The position numbers and the translations under genes are program-made. 64,000 nucleotides of DNA from Polytrichum commune. Its lineage: Eukaryota > Streptophyta > Polytrichopsida > Polytrichales > Polytrichaceae. Below are positions 32,859 through 42,360 of the stretch, piece after piece (positions within the stretch are counted from its first letter, which is position 1; the number at the start of each line of letters is the position of its first letter). Where the stretch lies: positions 11,532,001 to 11,596,000 of the forward strand of contig OX485803.1 of NCBI GenBank assembly GCA_950295325.1. Reading direction: 5' to 3'. The notes below the pieces were generated by a model, which saw only the letters and a program-made list of their open reading frames with translations, did no database searches and was not told where the DNA came from.

Positions 32859-33500
32859 CTTCCTCTCCATTCCTCACTCGGTCTTGCGCCCCTCGCATTC
32901 TTCAAAGCTCAAAGTTTTCCTGCACCCGATTTCGCATCTTTCCTCATCACCTTCAGGTGGGTTGCATGCATTCTAAACAGTCATGTTTCTCTCTTTCACA
33001 ACTTCTACTCAAAATGAAGACTTTGCAAGTCATCTGCTGTTACTGCAGAGCTCAACATCGTCGAAAGGGGGTGCAATTGGCATCTTCTTTGAAGCTTTTT
33101 GATGTGGTGCATCAATCTGGCATGTTGTAAACATCCCTACATATTTCCACTGATCAGATTTTTCCCCGCGTTTATTTTTCCTTGATGACCAAATGGTCGC
33201 ACAAATTCTAATCCTAATTGGCCCTTGTTGATGAGGGTTCGCCTTCCTCTGAGCGATTGTAACCAAGTGTTTCAGTAGCTTTGTGGATCAATTCTCTCAC
33301 AGACACTAAACCTTAGAGCCACCACGAGTTTCTCTGTCCTTCCTCAGTAATCCTCCCAGTATAGAGCGAAATGCTGTGTCACATTTACTATTTGATTCCT
33401 GTAAGAATCGATTCTGAGCTTAAGCTGGAATTCGTGTCTGTTTGTGGAGCATCGATGATGATCCCTGTTGCCAGAAACCCTAACATATTGTCTTTTGTTC

Positions 33501-34258
33501 GGAGCATGTTCCGCATTTGCCATTCTATAGGGCTCATTCTTTTTCACTACATGCTATCAATCTCTGTATGATGTTCGTGACCAGGGCACTTCGATTCCGT
33601 GCTAAATAACCGTGTTGTTGAGCACTGAGAATTCTCTACTTCCCTGGTTGAGATTTTGCTCTGAGAATTAGATGCATCCTTAGATGCATATAGCCACCTT
33701 GTCATCCACATTTCAGCTAAGAAATCCTCGATTCTTATGGCCCCCGGATCCAAAAAATTGCATGCTCAAACTGTTACTTAGCATGTGCACTGTGTAACAT
33801 CTGATTTGCGTTTGCAAGTTTCCTGACCATTGATGCGCGATTCAGCTGTTTGCAGCATGTTCTGCATTCACCGGTCTATAGGGCTCATTCTTCTTCACTA
33901 CATGCTATCAATCTTTGTATGATGTTCGTGACCAGTGCACTTCGTTTCTTTGCTGAGTTGTGAAATGTACCCTCAAGTTCACGGTGTTGTTGAGCAAAGA
34001 GAATTCTCTACTTCCCTGGTTGAGATTTTGCTTCGAGAATTAGCTACACCCTTAGATGATATAGCCACCTTTATCATCCACATTTCAGCTAAGAAATCCT
34101 CGATCTGATGCTCCTCGGATCCAAAACATTATACCGTAATTCTGAATAGAATGCATGCTCAAACTCTTACCTTAGCATCAACAGCATGTGTGCTATGTAA
34201 CTTCTGATTTGTGTTTGCAAGTTTCTGACAAAATGTGCACGATTTCAGCTGCAATTGG
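33501..34258 (+). repeat. Tandem duplication in HIBCH-like leader intron
   Basis: About 33501-33851 and 33852-34258 are tandem copies (shared blocks: CTATAGGGCTCATTCTT, ACTACATGCTATCAATCT, GAGAATTCTCTACTTCCC, CATTTCAGCTAAGAAATCC). The second copy has an extra 30-odd bases. Both copies end in a GATT(T)CAG/CTG acceptor-like site; the second is the probable acceptor (34249/34250) used for the coding part of the gene. Confidence 0.8.
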
Positions 34259-34331
34259 CATTCGTTTGTACAGGTCTCAAGGTGTAAGGGGACATTAAGT
34301 GACGGGGAGGGAAGCAGTGAAGGCTTGGAGG

Positions 34332-37300
34332 ATGGCAGGCTCAGTGGTAGACTGGGTGAAGGGCGCCGTGCTCCCGAATGGCCTCGCTGTCATCACATTA
34401 GATCGTCCCAAGCCCCTGAACGCCATGAACGCCGGTAAAATTTTGGTTCAATCTTCAATTATTAGAATGCCCAATTTAGTTAATCTCTCGTCCATCAACA
34501 ACCATTCCAAGAGTTTTGGGTTTAGGGTTGATACTAGTGGTGGACTGGTATCACTTTTTTGTATTCATACCACTTGGGTATATATAATGAGGAGTTTGCA
34601 TCTTTTGGATACAAGTAGGGTATGTGTACTTGGGGACATTTTGGTATTTGATACTATTCGGGTCTATATACCATCTAAGAACCTTCATACCTAAGTCAAG
34701 TGACCCCCGTATCAATTTGGTATTAGGATGGTAATGACCCAAATAATGATTTGGATAAACAAAGATTCTCTCATCTTGTGGTACCCAGCCAGTATTAATA
34801 TTTAACTACTGTTATAATTTTGATACCAGTTGGGTAGGCTATTTGATACCATTATTGATATTGTGTATCGATACCTTGCATTCACTTGTACACCAGTCCA
34901 ACATTGGTTGGTACAAGATGATGAGGTGCAAATTCTAACCTCCCTCTTTGCACAACAGATATGACTGAACTGTATAAGAAATACCTCGACGAATGGGCGA
35001 ACAGCAGTAAGGTGCAGGCAGTCCTGGTTCAAAGTTCCTCAGCTCGTGCATTTTCTTCAGGTGTGCATCCCTCTTGTCCTTGCTTCATTTGAATATACTT
35101 TTGTAGAATAACCCACTTCTGTGGCCTCTTTAATTGTTGTCATCACATTCCTAGGCCCTTGATGGATGCTCATGGGCTCCAGAGCAATATATGCATTTAT
35201 TGGCAGTGATGTTTACTACATATGGCCCTCTTTTTTGTCTTCTAATAAGGTAAGCGGGCCTGAAATGGACACTTTTCTTTCTTCACATACTTCTTGTAGG
35301 ATGAAACCACGCAATATTGTGCAAGTTGATTGCCAAGTCCAAATCTTGTCCGTGGCCATTTTCCTCATGAATTTTGGAGCTCATATGAATGTCTTGTTCA
35401 TTATCAAATTGAAGATTATCGAGCTCATTAAATAGTCATATAGCCCCCCCCGATTGTGTTGACTATTGAGCGTATGGTTATCAAAACTTGAGCACGCAGT
35501 CCAATCTCTTTTAAACACATGTCTTTTTGCTGTCCGTTCTTAGATCCATACCTAATCACACTCCACTCAAATATAGGTGTCTGATTAAGAAAAATACCTG
35601 AGTAAGGCCCACATAGCTTATGTTTGTTATAGATCTATTATAGATGTGGCCATGCAGGAGTGGTGATGATCTAGGGTTTCCTTGATTGTAATTTTGCAGG
35701 TATGGATGTAAAAGTGGGTGCAGCTGCAGTTCAAGAGGATGTGAATACACCTGTCATTCCCAAGGTCGTTTCAATCTCTCAGAGTAATTTAACAATCGGT
35801 TGGTCATAGGAATGATTTGAAAGAGCGTCACATGCTTGCATGCAGGTGGGGATGTGAAAGCAATGGCGACTGCACCCAGGCATGCAGTGCTAACAATGGC
35901 GTGCCAGGTCTGTACCAATGTTGGGCTGGTATATAGGTTAATGCATGGCATCAAAACACAATATTCATAATCGCATCAAAGAACCTACCTGACCAGTAAC
36001 ACAAATTACTTGTCAAATTTTGATACTTGGTGGGTATCACAAGACAAGAGAACCTTTGTTTATCTAAGATAGTCAATACCATCCTAATACCATATTGATA
36101 CCAGGGCCATTATATCTAGGTATAAAAGTTCTTGCATGGCATATAGACCTTGATGGTATCAAAATATCCTCAAATATCTGTACCTTACGGGTATCAAAAA
36201 ATTACAAATAGCTCTTTATATTTACCTGAGTGATATCAAAAAAAGATGGTGTGGGTCCAACACTGGTCTGTACCAACCTGAGCAGGACCTCTGTTATCAA
36301 AGAGACAGTGAAAGATGTTAGTGCAATTCAATGGGTGTTTTTTTGGTATAGTGAAACCCTTTAGGAGTACCCAATGGAGTAGAAGGACATATTCCTGCCC
36401 TGACAGTATTTTGGTTGGTTGCAAGTCATAGTAACAGATTCTAGAGTCTAGGGTCCATGAGCCCAAAGAGATTTGGTGTTGCCCATAGTGGCCCAAATGG
36501 GTGAAGCCTCAGGGCATTGATGTTTGGCAGGGACAAATAGCATAATCATCACATCTTGAGGTTATAACCTCTTCAAGCTTACCTGAACTTACAGTTCTGT
36601 TGAAGGGCCACTTGTTTATCCAGCGAAGAGAAGTCTGTAGTTGAATATAGTCTAAATTGTGAGAGGTACAGTACAGGGTCATGCTTGCACACAGAAGCTT
36701 AACAGCTTGACTTAGGCTTCTTGAAATAGTAACCGTTTTAACATTCTTCATCGTCTCTATCCAGATAATTCTTCTTTTAGTGTTTGAACCTCTCCCCTAG
36801 TAGCTCACTATAAAGTTGTGCCAAGGGTGCAGGCATTGAGTAATGAATACAAGTTAATTTGTGCTATAGCTCGGTACAAGAAGCCCTATATTTCTTTGAT
36901 GGACGGTGTCACCATGGGATTTGGGATTGGACTTTCTGGTCATGGGCGCTTCCGTGTGATCACTGAGGTAAGATTTTACTGAATTCCTTGAATTTTTATT
37001 TTGGCCCCACTAATCTGGGAAGTTTATAACTTTCCACTTTTTAATCCTGAAGTTTTGTTCTTTCTAAGGACAGTTAATTTAGAGATGAATGTGCAAGTAG
37101 TTCCAAAGTACACGCTGATGCTTTCTAAATAAACACACTGAAATTTTCTTACAAAATTTAGAAGTCTGTAAATCGGGTGAGAGAGGTGATAGCTATGTAT
37201 GACATGGCAGAAAACACTGCTTGCAATGCCGGAGAATGGAATCGGCCTCTTTCCAGATGTTGGCTTTGCACACATTGCTAGCAGAACTCCAGGACAAGGA

Positions 37301-40266
37301 GCTGTTGGTGAGCCTCTAAGACTTACAAGCCCTTGCTCTCATGTAACTTATGAGGACTTATTATGGAAATATTCCTTGATGGTTGTCGTTCCACAAAATC
37401 TCTAATTTTGTTTCCAATCACCTGGTATGTACTGTAAGTTTTCCATCTTTCCTGTATTGTGGATGTATGTTGTTGGTATGCACTCATGGAGAATGCCCCT
37501 GCAATCAACTTTCACTGTATTCTGGGGATAGTGCTTTTTCAAAGCATGTATTTGTTGCCTCATCTGCTATTGTGTCCCTTTATTTTTTTGTGTGAGTTGT
37601 GAACATAATGGAAGATTATGTTGATCGTGAATGACATTGATATGTGTTGGTGTTATGAATTCGTAGGTGCATACATGGGGATGACAGGAGCAAGGCTTGG
37701 CAACCCAGCTGATGCTCTCTACGTTGGTTTAGGTACACACTATGTACCTTGTGAGAAGCTGCCAGCATTGCAGGAGGCTCTCCGCAATCAAGAATTGTAA
37801 GTTTTTCCTGGACTTTGTACTCAACTTATCTACTTAATCCACCAAAGGGGAATCTCCGCTGGCAGTGGGAGAAGAGTTGGTTTGGCAATCTCAAATGTCT
37901 CTAGTCTGCGTTCCTGACTCTCTATGTGTGAGGATTCTTGTAATTCACAACATTATATGTATTATGTGTTATGGACCCATGAAAGGAGAGAAAGCCCCTG
38001 ATGATCTGCTTTGGAATAAATTGCGCTAGCCATCATTCCTTGGTGTTCTGTTAAGATATTCATGCATAATTTGGAGCAAATATCTTGGGGCTGAATTTTG
38101 TCCATGTTTTTTCAATATATCTAGGTTTTCTGTTGGTTGTGCAGGTCAGGAAATGCGTGGGAAGCTGTTGAAGAAGTTCTAGGGCGTTATCATGTGGTAC
38201 CGGACTCTGAGCCTCCACTGAAGGCTCTTCTGCCTGCCATCACTGCTTGCTTTGGTCATCTCTCAGTGTCAGAAACTATTGAAGCTCTGAAAAAGCACGA
38301 AAGTTCTGATGACCCCTCAGGTAGGTTATTTGCTTTCTTCTAAGATGATGTCTGATTCCATTATGCAGATTAAAATTGTTATAATCTGTTTAAATGGCAC
38401 ACACCTATGCTCCAATGACTGACGTCATTTAGAAAGACTCCCCTGAAACTTATGCAAAACCTCAGGCCTTCAAAGTCTTACATATGGAAGGTCTTTACTA
38501 CAGATTCTGGATACGAATGTAATGACTGACATTCCAAGGGTTTCCCTGCAGTGTCAGAATGGGCGAAAGGGGCACTTGCTGGCTTGGCCAAGGGAGCTCC
38601 GTTTAGTTTGAGTGTGACAAAGCATCACTATGCGGCTGTAGCTCACGCTGCAAAATCACCTGCAACTGATCTTGCTGAGGTCCATAAACTGCACCCTTTC
38701 TGGTTCAAATACTTTCAAGTTTAGTTTTGCTTGCAACATGGCAACAAGAATGTGCATCAGGTAACTGTATTTTTATTATAAGAAGTGTTTACTCGGGCCT
38801 ATATGTTCAGGGGAAGCCTTGATGCAACTGAAAGTTTATGAAGCACTGTAAATATTGTGCTCTGTGATATTCCTTACATCCTAATCATTGGGCATAAGCC
38901 TGGTGAAGAAGAGGACCTACTTCCCATCAGAAATCTATGAGCTCTTTTTACTAAATTTAGCTGTTAACATGCAAAACCAAGCCTTTATGTGTTGTATAGT
39001 ACTGGAGTTAAAAGCAGCTTGAGAAACTAATGTATTCTTTCATTGCAGATTGAAGGGGTCATGAAACTTGAGTTTAGACTTGCTGTGCGGATGGCAACAC
39101 GGCCAGATTTTGTGGAAGGTGTCAGGGCAGTGCTTGTTGATAAAGACCAGGTATTTTGGCATACTATCTCTTGATTGTTATGAGGTACCTCTTGAATGGC
39201 CTATTCAATTGTATTATAATGCTTTCAACGAGACCATAGTTCTGTGTGAAATTTTTTTAACAAACCCCTGGGGGTGCACCTCTCATTAAAACCAAGAATC
39301 ATGTGCATTCACAATGTACTCTAAAAACCCCCTATATACAAGTTTTTTGTTGTAAAATTAAGCAATACACGTACAATTTCAACGATAAAAATACAAGTGA
39401 CAATATGTGTACATTAAAAAAAAAAAACCATTTTCATATATAGTCATCAACATAAGTATACACATGTACTTTTGAATAACAATCAATCTCTATCATATTT
39501 ATAATGCAAAATCCTAGCAACCATTAATAAATTTATCAGACTTTTTCACCCCCTGGATGTAAGTTTGCAATATATATCATAGAAGCAAATGCAATTATTG
39601 TTTTTAAGTCTATCATCAAATGATTAATGAGAGTGTATATCGACTTGTTGGTTCCTTTTTGATACCAACAAATGCCAATCTCCATGTTTGATGGACAGTC
39701 CATTGATTCAATTGGATCCCTATACTCCAACCGACGTTTACCAAACTTTCTACGCATCCTCTAAACCCTTCCAACAAATTAACCCTAATTGGAGATGGTT
39801 TTTTTTTGGGTTATCTCATTTTTTTACCTTCAAGTGTGTTCAAAATACACACACCACATTCACAACCAAGAATACAATGCAAATGTTGTATATATTTTAA
39901 GTGTCCTCCATACATGTACATAACTACAAGTTATAATTTATGTAGCATATGTATATGCTGTACGGCGAAGTTCAAATTAATACCCCTTTTCTACACTCAC
40001 ATATAGTCATATGTGTTTAGTATAGTGCACCTCCTGGGTTCCAAACTTTAGCACTCATGCATGTGTCTGCAATTATCTTTCAAAACATCAGTTTGATGTA
40101 TTCATGCTAGTGTGTGTGATTCAGCGTGTACATCATAACTTAAATCTTCAACTGAGTTTTGCAGAAACCTAAGTGGCAGCCATCCACTATTGATGAAGTA
40201 GAAACAAGAGATGTGGAGGCCCTGTTTGAAGAGTACAAAAATTCTGCTGAGGAATTAGAGGTTTGA
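34332..40266 (+). CDS. 3-hydroxyisobutyryl-CoA hydrolase-like protein (crotonase fold)
   Basis: HIBCH-type enzymes hydrolyse 3-hydroxyisobutyryl-CoA in valine breakdown; this resembles the plant HIBCH-like protein 3 branch. Coding exons: 34332-34434, 34959-35060, then either 35700-35764 or 35846-35907, 36833-36967, 37211-37307, 37667-37796, 38145-38320, 38552-38679, 39049-39150, 40165-40266. All are GT/AG and in phase, giving 379 or 378 aa. Motifs: [13 protein letters not shown] near the start; [11 protein letters not shown] (oxyanion and CoA loop); [13 protein letters not shown] with the family's Glu and Asp eight residues apart (143 and 151 with the first alternative exon); [11 protein letters not shown] near the end. 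The frame open from 34299 begins with GTG, and TAA precedes it, so ATG 34332 is the likely start. No obvious transit peptide follows, so location is uncertain unless an upstream coding exon exists. Confidence 0.9.
34530..34915. repeat. MITE-like repeat in HIBCH-like intron 1
   Basis: Ends are imperfect inverted copies around TGGACTGGTAT and ACCAGTCCAACA. The same terminal wording (TGTACCAATGTTGG.CTGGT) occurs at 35908-36278 in another intron of the same gene. The interior is rich in GGTATCAA/TTGATACC. Confidence 0.55.
35488..35595. repeat. Dispersed repeat, copy 2
   Basis: Diverged copy of 26418-26530, inside the intron before the first alternative exon of the HIBCH-like gene. A short C run at 35444-35451 precedes it. 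Confidence 0.55.
35700..35764 (+). other. Alternative exon A of HIBCH-like gene
   Basis: 65 bp, phase 2-in/0-out. Encodes (G)[21 protein letters not shown], which resembles the GMDIKGVAAEI-type segment of the Arabidopsis relative. Acceptor TTTTGCAG is strong; donor AAG/GTCGTT is weak. Joined to exon 36833 it keeps the frame. Confidence 0.75.
35846..35907 (+). other. Alternative exon B of HIBCH-like gene
   Basis: 62 bp, same phases as exon A. Encodes (G)[20 protein letters not shown], which has the GGDVK wording common in HIBCH enzymes. It lies 81 bp after exon A. Donor CAG/GTCTGT is weak and abuts a repeat (35908-36278). Using both exons gives an immediate TGA; using neither gives a TAA after three codons. 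Confidence 0.7.
35908..36278. repeat. MITE-like repeat abutting alternative exon B
   Basis: Related to 34530-34915. The 12-base string GGTCTGTACCAA occurs at both ends (35907-35918 and 36265-36276) as a direct repeat and could be a target duplication. Inverted TGTTGG.C wording lies just inside. Its left edge coincides with the 5' splice site of exon B. Confidence 0.5.
39263..40040. mobile_element. Putative MITE in last HIBCH-like intron
   Basis: Left AACCCCTGGGGGTGCAC and right complement AACCCAGGAGGTGCAC are imperfect inverted ends of a roughly 780-bp AT-rich insert. Interior wording ACCCCCTATATACAAG also occurs in the element near 50480. No target duplication established. Confidence 0.4.
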
Positions 40267-40466: not shown

Positions 40467-40826
40467 GTCTCGGGGGGGGGGGGGGGGGGGCAGTGTGTTG
40501 AAAAGTTAAGGATATAGGTGCGAACAACCACTATTTTATAAGGGGGTATTACTTTCAATTCTCTTTTTTTTTTCACATGCTATCATTATGTAATTTTCTA
40601 CTTTGGGTTAATAGGAAAATGGCTTGCATTACTTATAATATCAAATTACCTATTATTCCATACCCTATAGTACTTTAAAGATGTTGAGTGCCATTTTTGA
40701 TACCCTATATTACTCTTAAGTCCATTTATAATTTTTTGCCCCCATGTTTTTAAAATACCCTATCATTTGTTCGCACGTGTATTGCTACTCCAACCAATGA
40801 CTACCCCCCCCCCCCCCCCCCGAGAC
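40467..40826. mobile_element. 360-bp element with long G-run termini
   Basis: Begins GTCTC then a run of about 20 G; ends with a run of about 18 C then GAGAC. ATAA flanks both sides (40463-40466, 40827-40830). GTGCGAACAA recurs inverted near both ends. It sits about 200 bp past the HIBCH-like stop codon, so it may lie in or just after the 3' UTR. Homopolymer lengths may be assembly-limited. Confidence 0.6.
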
Positions 40827-41351: not shown

Positions 41352-42360
41352 AGGGTTGTCTATCGCGACGTCATGACGGGGTCGTGCCGTCATGACGCGT
41401 CGTGTCGGGTCGGACCCCTCTGTCACGACACAATAGGCTCCTCGTAGGGTCAAACTAGGGTCAACCTAGTAGGGTGGGTAAAATACTTACCTTCTTGCCA
41501 AGGTGGCGTCCTATGTGGCAAAAAATGCCGACGTGGATGTGCATATTTCCTTTGGCATGTAAACCATTTTGCCACTGTGTTTACCATTTTGTTAAAATCA
41601 AAGTAATAAAATATTACTAAGGAGGGTGTAGGTCGGACGGGGGAGAGGGTCGGACGGGGGGGGGGGGGGGAGGATCGGGTGGGGTGGGAAGGTAGGGAGG
41701 GAAGGTAGGGTAGGGTCGGGGTAGGGTCGGGGAGGGAAGGTCGGTCGGGGAGGGAAGGTCGGTCGGGGAGGGAAGGTCGGACGGGGAGGGAGGACGGGAA
41801 GGTACGGGGTTAGGGTACGGGGAACGGGGGGAAGGTAAGTGGGAACGGGGGGGGGGGGGGCGGACGGGGGGGGAACGCGGGGAGCGTGTGGGAACGTGGG
41901 GAGCGGGGGATGGGAGCGGGTTTAGGAGGTTTGGATAGGACGGGATGGATGGGAACAGGATTAGGGGAACGGGGGAGGGGAACGAGAGGGAGGACGGGGG
42001 GTCGGACGGGGGGGTCGGACGGGAGGGAACGTAGGGAACGGGTTAGGGAACATGTTAATGGGCTAAGGGAGCGGGGTTAGGGTACGGGGAATGGGGGGGA
42101 ACGGGGGCGGACGGGAGGGCGGATGGGCGCTAGTAATTTTATTCCCCACTTTACCTCTATTTTGCTGACATGTCATCACACGTGGACATCGTAACTCCTA
42201 CGTGTCCGCAATGGGGTAATGTAAATACACAAAAAATTCGGTAAAATTCAAGTCCGGCAGAATAAAGACATCATCCGGCATAATGTCGTGACGGATACGT
42301 GTCGTGACGGCACGACATTATGTCGGGATTACCCTCCGTCACGACACAATAGACAACCCT
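41352..42360. mobile_element. 1-kb MULE-like element with G-rich core
   Basis: Flanked by the 10-bp direct repeat ATCAATAATC (41342-41351, 42361-42370), a length in the Mutator range. The ends are inverted: AGGGTTGTCTAT is shared exactly, then CGTCATGACGG-like palindromes fill the terminal 70-90 bp on each side. The core is G-rich repeat DNA, and no transposase is present. It is inserted in the gag part of the Copia copy. Confidence 0.75.
41621..42127 (+). repeat. ~500-bp G-rich imperfect minisatellite
   Basis: Almost C-free apart from GGTCGG and GGACGG units; long tracts of GGGAAGGT, GGTCGGGG, GGAACGGGG repeat irregularly, including several runs of 10 or more G. It has very high G-quadruplex potential on the + strand. 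Confidence 0.85.

Follow-up and report, generated by a model that had tools for sequence, protein, structure and literature searches.

A pair of mutually exclusive exons is described from flowering plants in Wang, O'Toole, Brendel and Young 2008 (PMC2277414). Medicago AC145449_47 (enoyl-CoA hydratase/isomerase) is given there with 11 exons, and its ESTs carry exon 3 (65 nt) or exon 4 (53 nt) in a mutually exclusive way. No isoform containing both exons is reported, one EST is named as skipping both, and the two isoforms have 418 and 414 aa. An identical pattern of exon choice is reported for Lotus LjTC_2465, At3g24360 and rice LOC_Os06g39344. For At4g13360, constitutive use of the 65-nt exon is reported, with no trace found of the 53-nt exon. 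The same source gives more retention for introns under 70 nt. Altered metabolites are reported for a knock-out of At3g24360 (PMC6314165).

The mutually exclusive exon pair itself is already published from angiosperm transcripts and is not new. No report of the pair in a moss was found in the literature searched, mostly at the level of search results.

Gene model and comparison with the published pair

The window (the whole stretch analysed, 64,000 nt of Polytrichum commune) contains a HIBCH-like gene at 34332-40266 (+) with 11 coding exons; 5′ untranslated exons lie outside the model. Exon borders were read from the genomic sequence, and the products of skipping and of double inclusion were computed. 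GT-AG borders are found at all introns. The reading frame is uninterrupted with either alternative exon (379 aa with A, 378 aa with B). The features of the model are as follows.

34332..34434, +: coding exon 1; begins at ATG, with an in-frame TAA at 34296-34298
34959..35060, +: coding exon 2; phase 1 end (TCA G|)
35700..35764, +: exon 3, alternative exon A; 65 nt, codes (G) and 21 residues
35765..35845, +: A-B intron; 81 nt
35846..35907, +: exon 4, alternative exon B; 62 nt, codes (G) and 20 residues
36833..36967, +: exon 5, common downstream exon; phase 0 entry, holds the MGFG motif
37211..37307, +: exon 6; catalytic-type motif
37667..37796, +: exon 7 of the gene model
38145..38320, +: exon 8 of the gene model
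38552..38679, +: exon 9 of the gene model
39049..39150, +: exon 10 of the gene model
40165..40266, +: exon 11; includes the stop TGA

A and B both have a phase 1 entry and a phase 0 exit, and each completes the glycine codon begun in exon 2. Both lengths are 2 mod 3; inclusion of both exons therefore shifts the frame and meets a TGA after three codons (V-G-M-stop after A). Omission of both gives I-E-stop (TAA). A single exon, whether A or B, preserves the frame; both or none breaks it. The original prediction had read A and B as mutually exclusive. Its coordinates, its lengths of 65 and 62 nt, the 81-nt gap, the phases and the wordings GMDVK (A) and GGDVK (B) were all exact on recomputation, as were its TGA within four codons for A plus B (three codons past the junction) and its early TAA for the skipping of both. 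The mutually exclusive reading is supported by the ESTs of the orthologous pair in Medicago, Lotus, At3g24360 and rice (PMC2277414).

The moss gene and the Medicago model have in common 11 exons, a pair at exons 3 and 4, and a first exon of the pair of 65 nt. The moss and angiosperm pairs also agree in that both exons are 2 mod 3 and the ECH domain is altered. Exon B is likened to the angiosperm exon 4 by its order, exon number and frame; it has 62 nt, whereas the Medicago exon 4 has 53 nt (9 nt more, frame kept). The moss isoforms are 36-39 residues shorter than those of Medicago. The 65-nt exon 3 type is kept in both At4g13360 and the moss gene, but the moss gene retains both exons. The use of one or the other exon is seen in angiosperm ESTs, whereas the moss pair is known here from genomic sequence alone. 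In the list of AG..GT cassettes, no GT follows 53 nt of B. A GT does follow 53 nt of exon A (35700-35752); as a match to the published 53-nt exon it was taken as a coincidence, since in the published gene the 53 nt form an exon of their own beside the 65-nt exon.

Most likely A and B correspond, in the moss, to exons 3 and 4 of the plant HIBCH-like gene, the pair published as mutually exclusive, and would give two enzyme isoforms. Exon 2 would be spliced to the acceptor of A or to that of B, and either would then be joined to exon 5. Both A and B would be used in Polytrichum commune; messages with A and B together or with neither would be lost, presumably by nonsense-mediated decay. Counting against this reading are the length of B (62 nt, not 53), the weak match of its tail (beyond the first four residues) to the bacterial profile, the transposon-like insert next to its donor and the relatedness of the bacterial rows.

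No second gene copy was seen: 10 of the 13 listed genome matches are exons of this locus (gaps could hide a copy), and the remaining 3 have E 0.06 or worse. A paralogue or retrocopy recording a spliced isoform was likewise not seen among these 13 listed matches. An in-frame TAA stands 36 bases upstream of the start codon (34296-34332), and no transit peptide is obvious in the predicted protein. The Medicago isoforms are 36-39 aa longer; a further 5′ exon outside the model is possible, as is another location of the HIBCH-like protein in the cell.

Other features of the flanks are recorded here. Upstream of the start codon, 33496-33822 and 33847-34225 form a direct duplication (spacing 351-403 bases, blocks 81-97% alike). 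Shortly downstream of the gene, 19 consecutive G (40472-40490) and 18 consecutive C (40804-40821) lie about 310 bases apart; CATAAGTCTC precedes them and GAGACATAAG follows them. This pair of runs resembles an element whose terminal inverted repeats are G runs. At 41640-42140, about 500 bases are G-rich on the + strand, with degenerate short tandem repeats.

Protein family and the exchanged segment

Pfam ECH_2 (PF16113) is matched with 341.9 bits by isoform A and with 348.3 bits by isoform B (cut-off 27.2), over profile positions 2-335 of 335 in both. The closest solved structures of both isoforms are 3-hydroxyisobutyryl-CoA hydrolases (PDB 3bpt, 4hdt). By sequence, the gene is HIBCH-like, of a predicted hydrolase class. 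The Glu and Asp of the motif MPE..IGLFPD, which we take to be catalytic, are present and aligned to those of the bacterial relatives and of 3bpt. The moss gene shares with 3bpt and 4hdt the ECH_2 class by sequence, the motif MPE..IG..PDVG and, in isoform B, GGD. It differs from them in the GMD of isoform A and in a second motif, which is MGFG instead of MGGG; MGGG is also found in the 9 rows shown of the 29 bacterial ones. We know of no alternative exon for the 3-hydroxyisobutyryl-CoA hydrolases of 3bpt and 4hdt.

The bacterial relatives are 32 loci found with isoform B as query. By their titles they are mostly related Alphaproteobacteria, so that the rows are not independent. GGD is found in 30 of the 30 bacterial rows that cover the segment, and GMD in none; B thus has the wording of the relatives and A departs from it. 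These rows give no support to the earlier statement that the family contains both wordings, and neither do the four PDB alignments shown, which have GGD or GAD.

The swapped segment had been placed after the oxyanion-loop glycine. It does follow that glycine, but it also alters the next residue (Gly or Met). Judged by rat enoyl-CoA hydratase, this position is presumably the first oxyanion-hole residue, and the swap would then reach the oxyanion-hole residue itself as well as the segment after it. The isoforms would differ in 20-21 residues, beginning at this presumed first oxyanion-hole residue (Gly in B, Met in A), and the segment would continue, by analogy, into the stretch lining the acyl pocket. 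With a swap at the oxyanion residue and in the acyl pocket, exon choice should alter substrate preference or rate; the Glu/Asp pair would be retained.

The repeat at the exon B donor

A MITE-like repeat lies at the donor of exon B, and a second copy of it lies in intron 1. The features are as follows.

35907..35916, +: left copy of GGTCTGTACC; spans the exon B 5′ splice site, apparent target-site duplication
35917..36264, +: MITE-like repeat, inserted at the exon B donor
36265-36274: right copy of GGTCTGTACC; apparent target-site duplication
34533..34908, -: second, inverted copy of the MITE-like repeat, in intron 1

An insert of this kind at the exon 4 donor is a feature of the moss gene, unlike the published angiosperm pair. 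In a wider match around the duplication of GGTCTGTACC, 13 of 14 bases are alike. The MITE-like family has at least 40 other matches in the genome. Near-full-length copies, 15 in all, are 13 of the 18 retrieved repeat loci (two of which are one place) and both copies of the window. A flanking direct repeat of at least 7 nt is found at 10 of these 15 copies, compared with 13 of 210 cross-paired flanks; one of at least 9 nt is found at 7 of 15 (cross-paired flanks, 13 of 210). By the rule of at least 7 nt, 5 of the 15 are without a flanking repeat. The simplest reading is that a MITE-like element inserted at the 5′ splice site of B and that the donor survived within the target duplication: the B donor would be intact as a result of the duplication having kept GGTCTGTACC. 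The other near-full-length copies are 70-73% identical to the copy at the B donor, and the insertion may for this reason be old.

Together, the two copies make a long inverted repeat that encloses exons 2, A and B. Their predicted duplex has an energy of -330.2 kcal/mol (50 shuffles: -115.3 +/- 8.6), and about 259 base pairs between the two copies are expected in the fold of 34332-37000. In this fold the mean unpaired probability is 0.24 for the B donor, 0.33 for the A donor and 0.10-0.17 for the donors of exons 1, 2 and 5. The inverted copies are a possible source of circular RNA or of a changed exon choice; effects of the inverted repeat on splicing are a guess.

The transposon-like insert abuts the B donor and might impair it. 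The pair could accordingly be homologous to the angiosperm exons with B dying since the insertion and only isoform A made now. The insert begins ten bases beyond the end of the exon, and a long duplex with the copy of intron 1 could start beside the donor; the tail of B is poorly conserved; and the 53-nt exon has been lost in At4g13360 (PMC2277414). Nevertheless, the donor is intact through the duplication of GGTCTGTACC and has better U1 pairing than that of A, B is open in frame with its GGDVK and its acceptor kept, in the fold the B donor is at least as unpaired as those of exons 1, 2 and 5, and the insertion, given the divergence of the other copies, may be old. The loss of B is considered unlikely, and its use as a second coding exon is preferred.

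Exon choice, coding support and age of the pair

The 5′ splice sites of A and B had both been called weak. This stands for A at most: its U1 duplex energy (-4.1 kcal/mol) is the weakest of the ten donors, next to exon 9 (-4.2). It does not stand for B, whose energy of -8.3 is the third strongest of ten (helix with an internal loop, reaching +8). Matches to the donor consensus are 6/9 for A and 7/9 for B, within the range of the ten donors (5-8), so that neither stands out by consensus. Weakness of both donors was therefore set aside as the basis of exclusivity, as it holds for A at most. RNA structure as a selector between A and B was also rejected: the fold of 35660-35930 has a z of 0.13, and 110 of 200 shuffles are as good. 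Steric exclusion by a short A-B intron is not favoured; its 81 nt exceed the 70-nt retention threshold of PMC2277414. We thus infer that exclusivity is most simply enforced by the frame and by decay of the wrong messages, together with some selector.

Decay of the wrong messages could also be the purpose of the arrangement. Both exons would then be used and unproductive splicing would control dosage, which is compatible with two enzymes. Both wrong combinations (A plus B, skip) terminate at once, and a skip-both EST exists in Medicago; an isoform containing both exons is, however, not reported for Medicago (PMC2277414), and both single-exon isoforms are open and family-like. Dosage control as the purpose is rated quite improbable, and production of two enzyme isoforms remains the preferred account.

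The coding support of A and B was assessed by shuffling. When 35765-36832 was shuffled 3000 times with its dinucleotides preserved, an AG followed by in-frame GGD[VI][KR] arose in 3 cases, with donor, length and open frame not demanded. In 35061-36832 there are 43 phase-compatible open AG..GT cassettes of 41-130 nt, A and B included; those beginning with G-x-D (8 of 43) are all on the acceptor of A or of B. The start of B is more than chance. A and B are identical at 12 of their first 15 bases and at 17 of the next 47, so that a common origin is visible at the start only. Segments were also scored with a profile of 29 bacterial relatives (300 shuffles each). The B segment has 315.1 bits (shuffled: 301.7 +/- 2.7, none of 300 as high) and the A segment 310.1 bits (shuffled: 301.6 +/- 3.0, 2 of 300 as high). 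When the first four residues are held and the tail is shuffled, scores as high are obtained in 36/300 for B and 35/300 for A; the profile support thus comes mostly from xDVK, and the tails are weakly informative in A and B alike.

That B is a chance pseudo-exon of the intron, with isoform A alone made, is highly improbable: AG...GT pairs are many (the 43 cassettes) and 36/300 shuffles of the B tail score as high against the family profile, but the G-x-D start is restricted to cassettes on the A or B acceptor, AG|GGD[VI][KR] arises in 3/3000 shuffles, and order, exon number and frame agree with the published pair (PMC2277414).

The plant was also placed by its plastid proteins. Within the 407.8-Mb genome assembly, PsaB scores highest with PDB 7ksq, 6l35 and 8htu (1700.6 bits), which are photosystem I structures of the moss Physcomitrium, followed by 9lut (1663.2 bits); the others among the 60 shown of 84 matches have 1627.4 bits or less. 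A search with rbcL (best match 9chz) added nothing to this placement. The presence of the pair in both a moss and angiosperms would make it older than their split, and the exon pair probably predates the divergence of mosses and flowering plants. This suggests that the exon switch may go back to the origin of land plants. To our knowledge, plant genes seldom have mutually exclusive exons, and a great age is known for few of them. A fuller history is held to be fairly likely: the pair would have arisen before the split and been kept since, among the oldest mutually exclusive pairs of plants, as a Gly-to-Met switch of the oxyanion position and pocket in a single-copy gene; one exon would later have been lost in one of the two Arabidopsis copies, and here a transposon would have landed on one donor, which stays readable through the target duplication.

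What gives the moss pair its value is its apparent age, together with the Gly/Met exchange at the oxyanion position. The effect of Gly versus Met at this position on the enzyme becomes a testable question. If the pair is shared by moss and angiosperms through this history, it would be a clear example of a splicing switch that alters a protein and has been maintained for a very long time.
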